Shown: in pieces, positions 1,615-8,358 of the stretch
Layout: each line of letters starts with the position of its first letter
How positions within the stretch are numbered: position 1 is the stretch's first letter
Source of the DNA: Actinomycetes bacterium
GTDB lineage: Bacteria; Actinomycetota; Acidimicrobiia; Acidimicrobiales; Palsa-688
Assembly: GCA_021850325.1 (NCBI GenBank)
Contig: JAJZMF010000042.1
Location: 1 to 64,000 of the forward strand
Length of the DNA stretch: 64,000 bases
Direction: 5' to 3'
Translations under genes and position numbers: made by a program
Notes under the pieces: model-generated
The model's input: only the letters and a program-made list of their open reading frames with translations
Database searches by the model: none
What the model was told of the DNA's origin: nothing

Positions 1615-2301
1615 TCAGCCTGTCGCCTTGCCAGAGGCCCAACGGCTGGCGGCCACGACGAAGCGGTAGGGCAGCTCCGCCCCTCGGGCCGGCGAAAGAC
1701 CGGTCCTGGTTGTCACCACCACCTGCCCTCCGGGGCCGGCGCCGTCGTCCACGAGCTCCAGCCTTTGGCCGCACCCCGGCACGGCCACGGCCGGCAAGCC
1801 GTTGTCCTGACCGCTGAGGCCGAAGGCGGCCGCCAGGCGCCCGGGGCCGCGGCAGAGGTCCCGTACGGCCGGAGCACGGCCGCCCCGCGCCCGCTCTGCC
1901 GCCATCTGCTCCAGGCCCTCGAGGGGCTGTGCAGCCCGTAGCAGCACAGCGGCGGCCACCCCTTCGGGGCCGCACACCAGGTTGGCGCACCAGTGCATGC
2001 CGTACGAGAAGTACACGTACAGGCGCCCGGGCGCCCCGAACATCGCGGCGGCGCGGGGCGTAGGGCCGCGCGCTGCGTGGCTGCCCGGGTCGTCCGTGCC
2101 CAGGTAGGCCTCGACCTCCACCAACCTTGCCACCCGCCCGTCACCGGCCACCAGCAGCTTGCCCAGCAGCTCGCGGGCCACGACCCGGGCGTCACGGGCG
2201 AAGAAGTCCTCGCTCAGCACCCGCCGGGCACGGCCCGGAGGGGGCGGGCCGGGGCCCCGCTCGTCCGGGCCGGTACCGGCCCGGGACGGCGGACGGTTCA
2301 A
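1615..2301 (-). CDS. 3-methyladenine DNA glycosylase (AAG/MPG family)
   Basis: Base-excision repair enzyme that removes alkylated purines. The 228-residue product has the family core: SEDFFARDARVVARELLGK, then ARLVEVEAY with the catalytic glutamate, the GSHAARG stretch, and YVYFSYGMHWCANLV, which forms the DNA-intercalating and active-site wall in this family; ELPYRFVVAASRWASG closes the fold. Length is typical (about 200). The start used is TTG at 2301, overlapping the argH stop by 4 bases (TTGA), which suggests translational coupling; a GTG at 2220 just before the conserved domain is an alternative. It is the last gene of the arginine cluster, probably by chance of operon position. Confidence 0.93.
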   Translation of the reverse strand: MNRPPSRAGTGPDERGPGPPPPGRARRVLSEDFFARDARVVARELLGKLLVAGDGRVARLVEVEAYLGTDDPGSHAARGPTPRAAAMFGAPGRLYVYFSYGMHWCANLVCGPEGVAAAVLLRAAQPLEGLEQMAAERARGGRAPAVRDLCRGPGRLAAAFGLSGQDNGLPAVAVPGCGQRLELVDDGAGPGGQVVVTTRTGLSPARGAELPYRFVVAASRWASGKATG

Positions 2302-3704
2302 CTAGCCGCTTGCCCCGAGGGGCCCAGGCCGAAGCGCTCGGCGTCCGCCCGGAGCTGCACCGAGAAGCGCTCCATCTGGTCCCCCACCGGCCCGGGGCCG
2401 GCCCCCCCGGGTGTGGTGCGCCTGGTGACAGCCACGCCGGGCTCGAGCAGGGCGACGGCGTCCGCCCCCAGGGCAGGGTGGGCAGCCACCAGCTCGGCCA
2501 GGGGCACCCTCCGTTGGAGCGACTCACGCACGAGGCCTCCCACCAGGCCGTGGGCCTGGCGGAACGGGACGCCCTTCTGCACGAGCCACTCGGCCAGGTC
2601 GGTGGCGGCCGAGGTGTGCGAGTCGGCTGCCCGGGCCATCGCCGCGGTGTCGAAGGTCGCGGTCGCGAAGAGGCCGCTCATGGCGTCCAGGGAACGCAGC
2701 ACCTGGTCCATGGCGTCGAAGAGCGGCTCCTTGTCCTCCTGCAGGTCCCGGTTGTACGCCAGGGGCAGGCCCTTGAGCGTGGTCATGAACCCGGCCAGGT
2801 GGCCAACCAGCCGCCCGCCTTTGCCCCGTGACAGCTCGGCGATGTCGGCGTTCTTCTTCTGGGGGAGCATCGAGCTCCCGGTCGCATAGGCGTCGTCGAG
2901 GTGCAGGAAGCCGAACTCCTCGGTCGACCACAGCACCACCTCCTCCCCCATGCGCGAGAGGTGCGTGCCCAGCAGGGCCAGGTCGAAGAGGGCCTCGGCT
3001 ACGAAGTCGCGGTCGGACACCGCATCGAGCGAGTTCTCGAAGCGCCCCGCAAAGCCGAGCTCACGGGCCACCCAGTCCGGGTCGAGGGGCAGGGACGAAC
3101 CCGCCAGGGCCCCAGCCCCCAGGGGGCTCACGTCCAGGCGTCGCCGCGTGGCCGCCAGGCGGTCCACGTCGCGGGCCAGCGCCCAGCCGTGCGCGAGCAG
3201 GTGGTGCGCCAGGAGCACCGGCTGCGCCCGCTGCATGTGCGTGTAACCGGGAAGGTAGGCGTCACCCACCTCCTCGGCCCGGGCCAACAGCACCTGCTGC
3301 AAACGGACCACGCCACGCGCCACCTCGGAGAGCCCCCGTTTGGTGAACAGGCGCAGGTCCGTCGCCACCTGGTCGTTGCGGCTCCGGCCGGTGTGCAGAC
3401 GGCCGCCGACCTCTCCCGCCACCTCTGTCACCCGGCGCTCCACCGCCGTGTGCACGTCCTCGTCACCGGCCTGGAACTCGAAGGAGCCCTCCGCCAGCTC
3501 CCGCTCCACCTCGGCCAGTGCCGCCAGCAGTGCCCCGGCGTCCTCACCCGAGATCAGGCCCGCCCGCTCCAGCCCGCGCACGTGGGCGCGGCTGCACGCG
3601 ATGTCGTCAGGGGCCAGGCGCCTGTCAAAGGACAGGCTCTCGGTGAACGCGAAGAGCTCGGCCGACTGGTTGCTGGTGCCGAAGCGGCCCTGCCAGAGCG
3701 TCAT
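2298..3704 (-). CDS. argH: Argininosuccinate lyase
   Basis: Cleaves argininosuccinate to arginine and fumarate, the last step of arginine synthesis. The 468-residue length is normal. It starts with the family N-terminus MTLWQGRF and has the fumarase/aspartase-superfamily signature GSSMLPQKKNADIAELSRGK; HTGRSRNDQVATDLRL and GYTHMQRAQPVLLAHH are substrate-binding segments. The gap of 82 bp to argR is the place where many actinobacteria carry argG; no argininosuccinate synthase is present here. The stop overlaps the downstream glycosylase start. Confidence 0.97.
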   Translation of the reverse strand: MTLWQGRFGTSNQSAELFAFTESLSFDRRLAPDDIACSRAHVRGLERAGLISGEDAGALLAALAEVERELAEGSFEFQAGDEDVHTAVERRVTEVAGEVGGRLHTGRSRNDQVATDLRLFTKRGLSEVARGVVRLQQVLLARAEEVGDAYLPGYTHMQRAQPVLLAHHLLAHGWALARDVDRLAATRRRLDVSPLGAGALAGSSLPLDPDWVARELGFAGRFENSLDAVSDRDFVAEALFDLALLGTHLSRMGEEVVLWSTEEFGFLHLDDAYATGSSMLPQKKNADIAELSRGKGGRLVGHLAGFMTTLKGLPLAYNRDLQEDKEPLFDAMDQVLRSLDAMSGLFATATFDTAAMARAADSHTSAATDLAEWLVQKGVPFRQAHGLVGGLVRESLQRRVPLAELVAAHPALGADAVALLEPGVAVTRRTTPGGAGPGPVGDQMERFSVQLRADAERFGLGPSGQAAS

Positions 3705-3786: not shown

Positions 3787-4275
3787 TCAAGCCTCCCCCG
3801 TGCCCGGCGCCTGGCCGGCCATGGAGGCCAACTTGTGCGCCAGCCGGGCCCCGTCGACGTCTGCCGCGGCCACCACGAGCACCGTGTCGTCGCCGGCCAC
3901 CGTGCCCAGCACCTCGGCCAGGCCGGCCCGGTCCAGTGCCGAGGCCACGACGTGGGCGCAACCGGGTGGTGTGCGCACGACCACCAGGTTGCCCGAGCTG
4001 TCCACGTCGGCCAACCACTCCCCCAGCACCCGGCGCAGGTGCAGTTCAGGTGCCGGGCGCTCAACCGGCGCTTCGGGCAGGGCGTACACGAGCGCGCCGC
4101 CCGGCCGGCGCACCTTTACCGCTCCCAGCTCCTCCAGGTCCCGCGACACGGTCACCTGGGTAGCCTCCACCCCCTGCTCGCTGAGCAGCCGGACCAGCTC
4201 GGCCTGGCTGGGCACCTCCTCGCGTTCGATCAGCTGTGCCACCCGGTGCTGACGCTGGGTCTTGGTCAGGCGCAC
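3787..4275 (-). CDS. argR: Arginine repressor ArgR
   Basis: Hexameric, arginine-responsive repressor of the arginine regulon. The N-terminal winged helix is [16 protein letters not shown] to [16 protein letters not shown]; the C-terminal oligomerisation and arginine-binding domain contains the hallmark [13 protein letters not shown] choose the GTG at 4275 because AGGGGG lies 8 nt upstream and the resulting 162 residues match the family; an ATG at 4311 overlapping argF by 17 bases would add 12 residues. It lies directly behind argF and probably acts on the ARG boxes at argB and argC described separately. Confidence 0.95.
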
Positions 4276-4294
4276 TGCCGGCACCCCCTGCGGC

Positions 4295-5212
4295 TCAGGC
4301 CTGGCCGTCATGGGAGCCGAACATCCACAGCAGCAGGCCCCGCACCGCCCTCAGCCGGTTTGCGGCCTGGGGCCACACCACGCTCTGAGGGCCGTCGATC
4401 ACCTCGTCGGTCACTTCCTCCCCCCGGCGCGCCGGCAGGCAGTGCAGGAACGCCGCCTTCGGCGCCGCCCTGGCCATCAGGGCGGCATCGACCTGGTAGG
4501 GGCGGAAGGCCTCCAGCCGGGAGGCCTCCTCGCCTTCCTGGCCCATGGAGACCCACACATCGGTCGAGACGGCATCGGCCCCCTCCACCGCCTCGACGGG
4601 TGAGGACGTGGCCTGTACCTCGCCGCCCAGCGCAGCGACCCTGTCCAGCACGTCCTGGTCCAGGCCGTGCCCGGGCGGGGAGGCGATGCTCACCGCAACG
4701 CCCGACATGGCGCAGCCGATGACCAGGCTGCGGGCCACGTTGTTCCCGTCGCCCACCCAGGCCAGGCGCCGCCCGGCCAGGCTCCCGCCCCAGTGCGCCC
4801 GCAGCGTCAGCAGGTCGGCGAGAGCCTGCAGGGGGTGGGCACGGTCCGAGAGCAGGTTCACAACGGGCACGCTGGCCACCCGGGCCATGCGCTCCAGGAC
4901 GGCGTGGTCCAGTACCCGCGCACCGATGGCACTGTGGTACTGGCACAGTGCCCTGCACACGTCCTCCGCCGTCTCCCGGGTGTCGATGCCGACCTCGTCG
5001 CCGCGTATGGACACCGGATGGCCGCCCAACTGGAACACCGCCACCTCCGAGGAGTTGCGGGTCCGGGCCGAGGGCTTCTGGAACACCAGGGCCACGCCCC
5101 GGCCGGCCAGCACGTGGGGAGGGTACTCGTCCTGAGCCAGCGCCAGGACAGCGGACAGCTCGGCCGGAGCCAGGTCGTCCAGGTCCAGCAGGTGGCGCAC
5201 GCCTCTCGTCAC
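4295..5212 (-). CDS. argF: Ornithine carbamoyltransferase
   Basis: Forms citrulline from ornithine and carbamoyl phosphate. The 305-residue protein has the carbamoyl-phosphate loop as S48-A-R-T-R52 (most homologues have STRTR), [11 protein letters not shown] at about 126, the ornithine loop DVWVSMGQE at about 218, and [11 protein letters not shown] with Cys258. These last two motifs favour ornithine over acetyl- or succinylornithine as substrate. It starts with GTG at 5212 behind GAGGAG, overlapping the argD stop by 4 bases (GTGA). It belongs to the argB-D-F-R-H transcription unit. Confidence 0.96.
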
Positions 5213-6354
5213 CGCTCCTCCCCCAGCACAGCGGCCAGGGCACCGACCGCTTCGTCGACCTCTTCCTCGGACACGAGCAGCGAAGGGGCCAGGCGCAGGG
5301 TGGTCGGTGTGACCGCGTTGAGCACCAGCCCGGCGGCCAGGCAGTCCTTGGCCACCTGCCGGGCGTCGACGCCCTCCAGCTCTGCTCCGAGCAGGAGCCC
5401 TTGCCCCCTCACCTGGCCCACGCGGGCCAGCCCCGCGAGCCGGCCTGCCAGGTAGCGCCCACGGGACTCGGCCCGCGCCGGCACCTCCTCCCGCTCCATC
5501 ACCGCCAGCGTGGCCCGGGCGGCCGACGCGGCCAACGGCTGGCCCCCGAACGTCGTCGCGTGGTCACCGGGCACGAACGCCGATGCCACCTCCTCGCGTG
5601 CCCAGCAGGCACCGATGGGCACTCCGTTGCCCAACGCCTTGGCCATACTGACAACGTCGGGACGGACGCCATGGTGCTGGAACCCGAACCAGCGCCCGGT
5701 GCGCCCCAGGCCCGTCTGCACCTCGTCCACCATGAGCAGTACGCCACGCTCGTCGCACAACCGGCGCACCGCCTCCAGGTAACCCGGAGGGGCGGGCCAG
5801 ACGCCACCCTCCCCCTGGACCGGTTCGAGGAGAACCGCCGCCACCTCCGGCGACAGCGCACGCTCCAGTGCCTCGACATCGGCCCAGGCGACATGGCGGA
5901 ACCCTTCGGGCAGGGGCTGGAAGGCCTCGTGCTTGGCCGGCTGGCCCGTGGCGTGCAGGGTGGCCAGGGTGCGCCCGTGGAAGGACCCGTAGGCGCTGAC
6001 CACCACGTACCGGCCGTGCCCTGCCCACTTGCGAGCCAGCTTTATGGCGCACTCGTTGGCTTCGGCCCCGCTGTTCGCAAAGAAGACCCGGCCGCCCCCG
6101 CCCACCAGGCGGTCCAGCGTTGCCGCCACCTCCCGCTGCGGGAGCGTCCCGAAGAGGTTGGAGGTGTGGAGCAGGGACCTGGCCGCGCCACAGATGGCGT
6201 CAGCCACCTCAGGGTGGGCGTGCCCCAGCGAAGTCACCGCTATCCCGCTCAGGAAATCGAGGTAGCGCCGCCCTTCTTCGTCCCACAGGTACGAGCCCTC
6301 ACCCCGCACGAAGGTGACTGCCGGCTCGGGGTAGGTGTTCATGAGCCTGTTCAC
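5209..6354 (-). CDS. argD: Acetylornithine aminotransferase
   Basis: PLP enzyme converting N-acetylglutamate semialdehyde to N-acetylornithine. The 381-residue class III aminotransferase shows NSGAEANECAIKLAR, SFHGRT, VDEVQTGLGRTG with Asp210 contacting the PLP ring nitrogen, and SMAKALGNGVP with the Schiff-base Lys239. TTFGGQPLAA completes the PLP phosphate site. The GTG start at 6354 overlaps the argB stop by 4 bases (GTGA); an in-frame ATG lies 4 codons later. Because argJ is missing, the fate of its product (deacetylation by ArgE or transacetylation by an ArgJ elsewhere) cannot be told from this window. Confidence 0.96.
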   Translation of the reverse strand: MNRLMNTYPEPAVTFVRGEGSYLWDEEGRRYLDFLSGIAVTSLGHAHPEVADAICGAARSLLHTSNLFGTLPQREVAATLDRLVGGGGRVFFANSGAEANECAIKLARKWAGHGRYVVVSAYGSFHGRTLATLHATGQPAKHEAFQPLPEGFRHVAWADVEALERALSPEVAAVLLEPVQGEGGVWPAPPGYLEAVRRLCDERGVLLMVDEVQTGLGRTGRWFGFQHHGVRPDVVSMAKALGNGVPIGACWAREEVASAFVPGDHATTFGGQPLAASAARATLAVMEREEVPARAESRGRYLAGRLAGLARVGQVRGQGLLLGAELEGVDARQVAKDCLAAGLVLNAVTPTTLRLAPSLLVSEEEVDEAVGALAAVLGEER

Positions 6355-7229
6355 GGCACCACCATGGTCCCTGTGCCCCGGTCGGTGAAGAACTCGAGCA
6401 GCAGGACGTGGGCTGTCCGGCCGTCGAGTATGTAGGCCCGGGCCACACCACCCCGCACCGCGTCCAGCGCTGCCTCGACTTTGGGCACCATCCCGCCCAC
6501 CACCGACCCCTCGGCGACCATCTGGCGCAGCTCGTCGGCGCCCACCTGGCTGAGGAGGCTGGACGGGTCACCCGGGTCGCGCCGCACACCCTCCACGTCG
6601 GTGAGGAAGACCAGCTTCTCCGCCGCCAGGGCAGCAGCTATGGCGGCAGCCGCCGTGTCGGCGTTGATGTTGTAGGCCTGGCCGGTCCGGTCGCTGCCGA
6701 TGGTGGCCACGACCGGCACCAGGTCCTCGGCCACCAGGCGGGCCAACAGCTCCGGGGCAACGTGGGTGATGTCGCCGACGAACCCGAGGGCCGGGTCACG
6801 TGGCGAAGCCTGGATTATGCCCGCGTCCTCGCCCGACACCCCTACCGCGAGCGGGCCGTGCACGTTGATGGCCGCCACGATGTCCCGGTTGACCTTGCCC
6901 ACCAGGACCATACGGGCTATGTCGAGCGTCTCGGCGTCGGTCACCCGTAGCCCGTCCCGGAACTCCGGGATCTTGCCCAGCCTGCTCATGAGCTCGCCGA
7001 TCTGGGGGCCGCCTCCGTGGACCACCACCGGGCACATGCCCACCGACCGCATGAGGACGATGTCGGTTGCGAAGCCCGCCAGGTCGGAGCCGCTGCCGAG
7101 GGCACTGCCCCCGTACTTGACGACCACGATCTTGTCGCGGAAGCGCTGGATGTACGGCAGGGCTTCGACCAGCACCTCGGCCTTCACTGCCGGGGCCAGG
7201 TCCGGCGGGGCCCCTTGCGTAGTCGTCAC
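6351..7229 (-). CDS. argB: Acetylglutamate kinase
   Basis: Phosphorylates N-acetylglutamate, the regulated second step of arginine synthesis. The product from the GTG at 7229 has 292 residues, with KYGGSAL (about 39-44) and HGGGPQIGEL (about 71-80) of the amino acid kinase fold, and NINADTAAAAIAAAL near the C-terminus. A longer frame to 7343 exists, but the GTG at 7229 fits family length and sits exactly 8 nt after a good -10 hexamer, so the mRNA is probably leaderless. It is separated from argC by 55 bp that hold its own ARG-box promoter; argJ, usual at this place, is absent. Confidence 0.95.
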   Translation of the reverse strand: MTTTQGAPPDLAPAVKAEVLVEALPYIQRFRDKIVVVKYGGSALGSGSDLAGFATDIVLMRSVGMCPVVVHGGGPQIGELMSRLGKIPEFRDGLRVTDAETLDIARMVLVGKVNRDIVAAINVHGPLAVGVSGEDAGIIQASPRDPALGFVGDITHVAPELLARLVAEDLVPVVATIGSDRTGQAYNINADTAAAAIAAALAAEKLVFLTDVEGVRRDPGDPSSLLSQVGADELRQMVAEGSVVGGMVPKVEAALDAVRGGVARAYILDGRTAHVLLLEFFTDRGTGTMVVP

Positions 7230-7266
7230 GGAGAGTAATGATACACGTGACTGGATAAAGATGCAA
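7230..7266 (-). promoter_or_regulatory. argB leaderless promoter overlapped by a double ARG box
   Basis: On the minus strand TTGCAT (7261-7266), 17 bp, TATCAT (7238-7243), then 8 nt to the GTG of argB: a near-consensus promoter whose start point would fall at the start codon. Laid over it are TGCATCTTTATCC (7253-7265) and TGTATCATTACTC (7233-7245), 20 bp apart, matching the pattern of paired ArgR half-site boxes. The same arrangement occurs at argC, including the identical TGCATCTTTAT. Binding of ArgR would cover both hexamers. Confidence 0.8.
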
Positions 7267-7284
7267 GGCCCCGCCGCCGGCCCG

Positions 7285-8307
7285 TCACGGCATGAGGCCG
7301 GCCATGGGCAACCCCAGCGTCTCGGGCCAGCCCATGACCGCATTGGCGCACTGCACCGCCTGCCCCGAAGCCCCTTTTACGAGGTTGTCCAGCGCGCAGA
7401 TCGCCACCACCCAGCCCGTACGGGGGTCGCTGCGCGCGGTCACATGGGCGACGTTGCTGCCCAGGACGGCCTTGGTGGACGGGATCCTCTCCCCGGCCAG
7501 CACGAACGGCTCCTCGCGGTAGGCCTCGACCAGGGCCCCCAGGGCGTCGACCGGGCCGTGCCCGGCCGGACGGGCATAGCAGGTGGCGAGGATCCCCCGG
7601 TTCATGGGAGCGAGGTGCGGCGTGAACAGCACCTGGCCACCGATGGCCTGCTCCATCTCAGGCGTGTGACGGTGCACGAGCAGGCCGTAGGCCGTGAAGT
7701 CCTCGTCCACCGAGCAGAACTGGGTGTTGTCAGCCGGCTTGCGGCCCGCTCCGGACACGCCACTGGCGGCGTCCACCACGAGGCCCTCGGGCTCCACCAA
7801 GCCTGCTCCCACCAGGGGGGCGAGAGCGAGCGTTGCCGCCGTCACATAACAACCGGCCGCAGCGACGAGCCGCGCTCCCGGGAGGCGGGCCCTGTCCAGT
7901 TCGGGGAGGCCGAAGACCGCCTCCTCCAGCAGCTCGGGACAGGTGTGCTCCTCCTTGTACCAGCGGGGATAAGCCGAAGCGTCCTTGAGCCTGAAATCAG
8001 CCGCCAGGTCCACGACATGGCCCACCTCGCCCAGCAGGCCGGGGACGAGCTTCTGGGAAGCGCCGTGAGGCAGAGCGCAGAACACGAGGTCCGTCCCGGC
8101 CACCGAGGCCAGCTCCTGGGGACGGTAGGCCAGCCCGGGGTAGGCAGCGGCGAGCGAGGGGTACAGGTCGGCGACCTCCCTGCCCTCCTGGGAGGACGCC
8201 GTGACCGCCGTCACCTCGAAGCGGGGGTGGGCGGCCAGGAGCCGTAGCAGCTCGGCCCCGACATAGCCCGACGCCCCGAGGACGCCTACCTTCCTGGTCC
8301 CAGTCAC
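7285..8307 (-). CDS. argC: N-acetyl-gamma-glutamyl-phosphate reductase
   Basis: NADPH-dependent reduction of N-acetylglutamyl phosphate to the semialdehyde. From the GTG at 8307 the protein has 340 residues and begins VTGTRKVGVLGASGYVGAEL, with the dinucleotide motif GASGYVG at 11-17. The catalytic cysteine is Cys153 in AAGCYVT, and GVSGAGRKP and HRHTPEMEQ are conserved downstream. An ATG 7 codons upstream (8328) is in frame but lies inside the promoter, so I reject it. It is first in the arginine cluster and lies 51 bp behind pheT. Confidence 0.95.
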   Translation of the reverse strand: MTGTRKVGVLGASGYVGAELLRLLAAHPRFEVTAVTASSQEGREVADLYPSLAAAYPGLAYRPQELASVAGTDLVFCALPHGASQKLVPGLLGEVGHVVDLAADFRLKDASAYPRWYKEEHTCPELLEEAVFGLPELDRARLPGARLVAAAGCYVTAATLALAPLVGAGLVEPEGLVVDAASGVSGAGRKPADNTQFCSVDEDFTAYGLLVHRHTPEMEQAIGGQVLFTPHLAPMNRGILATCYARPAGHGPVDALGALVEAYREEPFVLAGERIPSTKAVLGSNVAHVTARSDPRTGWVVAICALDNLVKGASGQAVQCANAVMGWPETLGLPMAGLMP

Positions 8308-8342
8308 AGGCTCACTATACAGTGCCACGTATAAAGATGCAG
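8308..8342 (-). promoter_or_regulatory. argC leaderless promoter overlapped by a double ARG box
   Basis: On the minus strand CTGCAT (8337-8342), 17-bp spacer, TATAGT (8314-8319), then 6 nt to the GTG of argC. TGCATCTTTATAC (8329-8341) and TGTATAGTGAG (8311-8321) are spaced by 20 bp, as at argB. The shared 11-mer TGCATCTTTAT in the same position relative to the -35 hexamer at both genes is the strongest sign that these are ArgR operators. Confidence 0.8.
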
Positions 8343-8358
8343 GCCCCGTGCCCGGGGC

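Follow-up and report, generated by a model that had tools for sequence, protein, structure and literature searches.

Putative ArgR operators overlapping predicted leaderless promoters at argC and argB of an acidimicrobial arginine gene cluster

The ArgR-binding region of S. clavuligerus has been footprinted as two 18-nt ARG boxes 2 bp apart (PMC3293853), and the arg operators of E. coli are similarly composed of two 18-bp boxes with 2-3 bp in between (PMC3293853). As for promoters, that of M. tuberculosis was described as a TANNNT motif without a -35 element (PMC3898074), and published estimates place the leaderless genes at about one fifth of the genes in Actinobacteria (PMC3160421). Each ingredient of the arrangement reported herein, namely ArgR boxes over promoters, the 20-bp spacing, an ArgR site before argB, and leaderless TANNNT promoters, is already known; no description of an ArgR operator placed on a leaderless promoter was found in the searched literature, which was mostly without subscription papers.

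The window, i.e., the whole 64,000-nucleotide stretch of DNA analyzed in this study, belongs to a 3.18-Mb draft genome of 49 contigs, whose nearest named relatives in terms of argC were MAGs labelled Acidimicrobiaceae, Acidimicrobiales or Actinomycetes; its source is accordingly regarded as an uncultured actinobacterium of the class Acidimicrobiia. Its minus strand carries pheS-pheT-argC-argB-argD-argF-argR-argH in this order, where pheS and pheT were named on the basis of their translations and position. Separated from pheT by 51 bp, argC (7285..8307) starts with the GTG at 8307 and encodes N-acetyl-gamma-glutamyl-phosphate reductase having Semialdhyde_dh/dhC domains, and argB (6351..7229), which encodes N-acetylglutamate kinase having an AA_kinase domain, starts with the GTG at 7229, so that the distance of 55 bp between the two genes given in the first-pass annotation was correct (7230-7284). 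The starts in the ORF list (8328 for argC and 7343 for argB) were set aside because the conserved N-termini and the operator position favored 8307 and 7229. Further downstream, argD (5209..6354) overlaps the end of argB by 4 nt, as does argF (4295..5212) the end of argD, and they are followed by argR (3787..4311) and by argH (2298..3704), the latter of which has TAGGGT 9 nt before its ATG and no ArgR box. In the window (7229-7285) and in most of its family, the argC-argB interval is devoid of argJ; in the window's genome this gene is located on a separate contig (L128; G000 contig 21:127665-128777), and no operator-like site was found in that locus. Nor was an ArgR-type site seen upstream of argG when that stretch was read by eye.

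On the minus strand, argC is preceded by TGCATCTTTATACGTGGCACTGTATAGT (8341-8314) and GAGCCT, and argB by TGCATCTTTATCCAGTCACGTGTATCAT (7265-7238) and TACTCTCC. These stretches contain the putative ArgR boxes 1, TGCATCTTTATACG (8328..8341) for argC and TGCATCTTTATCCA (7252..7265) for argB, the latter being the sole exact match to TGMATNNNNATNCA in the genome. The palindrome TGNAT-N4-ATNCA was present exactly in the argB box and with one mismatch in the argC box, the right half of which (ATACG) is degenerate against the class consensus ATGCA. At an offset of 20 bp from box 1, both genes have the half-box TGTAT (8317..8321 for argC and 7241..7245 for argB) as the left half of a second box, the right half of which is degenerate in the window; the half-box has bases in common with the -10 hexamer, in argC its TAT. 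The first-pass annotation had described the two sites as carrying the same 11-mer, with a half-box 20 bp further on, and as being alike to the base. The 11-mer TGCATCTTTAT was indeed found exactly twice in the whole genome (none for the control pattern). It is identical at the two genes, as are the half-box and its offset of 20 bp; the distance from the -10 hexamer to the start codon is not (6 vs 8 nt). When one mismatch was allowed, a genome search for the single box yielded no more matches than the control (89 vs 116). The composite pattern TGCATCTTTAT-N9-TGTAT matched twice in the window and never in 100 window shuffles even at 3 mismatches, and a pattern search for the degenerate operator allowing up to 3 mismatches matched just these two sites in 3.18 Mb. 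In the window, box 1 is preceded by CGGGGCC at both genes (7229-7275 and 8307-8350).

The assignment of these boxes to ArgR was sustained by a cognate ArgR encoded nearby and by the agreement of their sequence and 20-bp spacing with the published actinobacterial ARG boxes, as two 18-nt boxes 2 bp apart correspond to the same offset as that in the window. The argR gene lies in the same gene run as the operators, and its product, the presumed binder of both, possesses the two domains Arg_repressor and Arg_repressor_C. The best PDB match of this product was an arginine repressor, a chain of 3ere/3fhz/3laj/3lap, which we take to be M. tuberculosis ArgR, in some entries with operator DNA. ArgR would accordingly be predicted to bind at both operators, with an affinity that could be modest considering the degenerate right halves of the argC box 1 and of box 2 at both genes. 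It is highly improbable that the boxes are read instead by another regulator such as FarR, a further protein that in C. glutamicum binds in front of both argC and argB (PMC4258820), because the sequence and the 20-bp register match ARG boxes (PMC3293853), argR is part of the same gene run, and the sites in this genome are found at arg genes only.

The -10 hexamers, TATAGT (8314..8319) for argC and TATCAT (7238..7243) for argB, lie 6 and 8 nt before the respective GTG, in line with the 6-8 bases proposed in the first-pass annotation. Its -35 hexamers, however, are weak, CTGCAT agreeing with TTGACA at 2 and TTGCAT at 3 of the 6 positions. A promoter scan found no sigma-70-like -35/-10 pair, and a canonical sigma-70 promoter (-35 near TTGACA, 16-18 bp) was rejected since the scan gave no acceptable pair. 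Given such weak hexamers and the outcome of the scan, the supposed -35 hexamers are probably nothing more than part of ArgR box 1. No Shine-Dalgarno sequence precedes the GTG of argC or argB, and both genes thus combine its absence with a TANNNT motif about 5-9 nt before the start. The leaderless signature was scored wherever a candidate start within the first 60 codons followed the end of a TANNNT by 5-9 nt; it was detected in 10 of the 40 window ORFs called coding by codon-position GC content, vs 1 of 624 control stretches taken inside the same ORFs (Fisher p about 2e-12), in agreement with both the published share of leaderless genes and the M. tuberculosis motif. These data support leaderless argC and argB mRNAs with predicted transcript ends, and operator, promoter, and start codon would overlap in about 35 bases at each gene. 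For argB, the -10-to-GTG distance of 8 and a C at the usual start distance imply that transcription could begin 1-2 nt away from the GTG. Transcripts could additionally be supplied by readthrough, either from pheT across its 51-bp gap or from argC. A terminator-like stem at 8354-8340 was dismissed as weak and at chance level.

Comparison with related genomes supported the proposed architecture, in that both the register of the operator and the close spacing of -10 and start codon were conserved across Acidimicrobiia. The comparison covered 72 distinct argC upstream regions (protein identity of at least 54%) from named and species genomes, and an operator was counted as present at a score of at least 13 of 17 specified positions. 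It was present in 64 of these 72 loci, and the argC switch is thus common across the class. The box-1 consensus of the 64 operators was T-G-C-A-T-N3-T-A-T-G-C-A; positions G2, C13, G22 and A24 were invariant, and A4 (63/64), T5, A10, T11, T23 and T25 nearly so. The right half of box 2 resembled ATGCA (at least 3 of 5) in 28 of the 64, often abutting the start codon, as in GATGCAATG. Counted from the end of the -10, the first in-frame start was 6-9 nt away in 56 of these 64 operators, exactly 6 nt being the mode (35 operators), and the last T of the -10, which lies outside the ArgR half-box, was kept in 57.

These frequencies bear on the alternative that the boxes are ArgR operators of leadered mRNAs, which would start upstream by readthrough from pheT or argC, with ArgR acting mainly as a roadblock and TATANT being no more than part of the half-box. 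As TGTAT supplies the TAT of the -10, ArgR alone predicts part of the -10 conservation, and the poor -35 and the upstream gene gaps of just 51 and 55 bp are also in line with leadered transcripts. Nevertheless, the conservation of the last T beyond the half-box argues for a real -10, and the fixed distance to the start codon, the lack of a Shine-Dalgarno sequence, and the leaderless signature common in this genome all speak against leaders, as do some Shine-Dalgarno-bearing, more distant relatives (e.g., L047, L048, L171, L174, and L178), in which the box is much further from the start. We consider leadered mRNAs improbable and retain the leaderless reading. Distant Actinomycetota (L061, L064-L066, L073, L075-L077, and L081) have a different repeat, e.g., TATGCGTGTATGCGTATA or TATCGGAATATGTGTATA, at the end of which a -10 stands roughly 6-7 nt ahead of argC; this suggests a leaderless argC with another box layout.

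The argB operator was of far narrower distribution. In a tree built on joined ArgC and ArgB, all eight argB operators, in which the -10 lies 7-8 nt before the start, fell inside one 9-row clade (SH-aLRT 100). Their distribution required two changes on the tree, interpreted as a single gain and a single loss; the argB copy arose in this one small lineage. Among the genomes with argB directly after argC, the gene was coupled to argC in 0 of 7 cases with the operator and in 16 of 18 without it (p = 7.5e-5 ignoring relatedness). In the coupled operator-less genes, the overlap with the argC stop amounts to 4 nt, except for one gene with 1 nt, whereas the first downstream candidate start of the operator-bearing ones was 32-138 nt past it. 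In the window, argB is uncoupled from argC (55-bp gap). L089, the single clade member lacking the argB operator, has a coupled argB. As the pattern rests on about two evolutionary changes, it is a correlation rather than proof, and whether the lost coupling led to the gained promoter or the reverse is a matter of inference. An uncoupled argB without a Shine-Dalgarno sequence most likely depends on its own leaderless transcript, over which the operator would keep arginine control, and the absent overlap coupling may explain why a gene just 55 bp away has a switch of its own. In L009, a CAP/SCP-domain-like gene (7054-8160), not argJ, is situated between argC and argB, and argB there still has its own predicted ArgR-leaderless promoter.

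Alternatively, the argB operator might have been copied recently and locally from that of argC, by duplication or gene conversion, and might have no needed function. The box-1 sequences of the window, including the CGGGGCC before them, are nearly identical (one-base indel), and in the congeners L084 and L085 either gene has a form such as TGAATGA(A/T)TAT or TGAATGGTTAT; box 1 differs together at the two genes, being TGCATCTTTAT in the window vs TGAATGATTAT-like in the congeners, which suggests local copying. On the other hand, seven further clade genomes kept the argB operator with diverged spacers, and genus g3 kept it despite the loss of the argC operator, both of which point to selection; a functionless duplicate is improbable as well, and a retained, functional argB operator is preferred.

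In this sister genus (L087, L088, and L091), the argC operator was gone in all three genomes, two of which are close relatives, and the argB operator was kept. Upstream of argC, they have TANNNT, 6 nt, and then a 12-codon mini-ORF (MKRSRRQRNRRP, MKLGRRQRNRRP, and MMRVRRAAGSWP), which begins with an ATG 35 nt before argC in 3/3 genomes and the stop of which overlaps the argC start. The mini-ORFs contain 5-6 Arg codons in two genomes and 3 in the third. At this base composition, 5 or more Arg codons among 11 would arise by chance with a probability of about 0.02, and the Arg-richness alone is thus weak evidence. Canestrari and colleagues reportedly described, in 2020, cysteine-rich leaderless short ORFs that attenuate operons in mycobacteria (cited in PMC9031893). 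By analogy, the g3 mini-ORF is a candidate arginine-sensing leaderless leader peptide. That arginine control was rewired in the clade, with an ArgR-controlled leaderless promoter gained at argB and the g3 argC operator replaced by a mini-ORF possibly sensing the arginyl-tRNA supply, is a tentative scenario that we regard as rather unlikely.

Taken together, we consider it highly probable that an ArgR operator sits on a leaderless promoter at both genes and that the argB unit, gained once, drives argB together with argDFR. In the proposed mechanism, ample arginine would cause the ArgR hexamer, with arginine bound, to occupy both box 1, which covers the -35 position, and the half-box TGTAT, which shares bases with the -10, making the promoter unusable by RNA polymerase. 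When arginine is scarce, ArgR would be off the DNA, transcription would start at the GTG or 1-2 nt away, and ribosomes would initiate on the 5'-terminal start codon. Owing to the 55-bp gap and the missing Shine-Dalgarno sequence, the argC transcript is proposed to be a poor template for argB translation, and argB hence to use its own repressible leaderless promoter, which would also serve the overlapping argDFR. The origin of this unit would be a single event in the clade of the window, later than the departure of argJ from between argC and argB, and in genomes with uncoupled argB. The locus permits a comparison across the class of an arrangement in which repressor site, -10, and leaderless start codon would lie within the same few bases, places the gain of a second operator at argB, accompanying absent translational coupling, on a tree, and allows testing whether a leaderless gene requires a promoter of its own when it is part of an operon.

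Among the known systems, the argCJBDR operon of S. clavuligerus (PMC3293853) likewise has two ARG boxes with 20-bp centre spacing upstream of argC and includes argR in the same operon, but the second box here is a conserved half-box over the -10 with the start codon 6-8 nt downstream, and a second operator is present at argB. As in E. coli, the repressor sites overlap the promoter; unlike in E. coli, the mRNA is predicted to be leaderless, so that the start codon, too, falls within this stretch. In C. glutamicum, a further site bound by ArgR has been described inside the cluster, immediately in front of argB (Lee et al. 2010, 2011, as cited in PMC4258820), but there argJ precedes argB and FarR is involved; the likeness is by description, not base by base. 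The g3 mini-ORF is possibly akin to the cysteine-rich leaderless attenuators of mycobacteria, but as a candidate sensor of arginine. Finally, the promoters share with the leaderless TANNNT promoters of Actinobacteria (PMC3898074, PMC3160421) a -10 shortly before the start and no conserved -35, and differ from them in that the motif is common to a repressor half-box.
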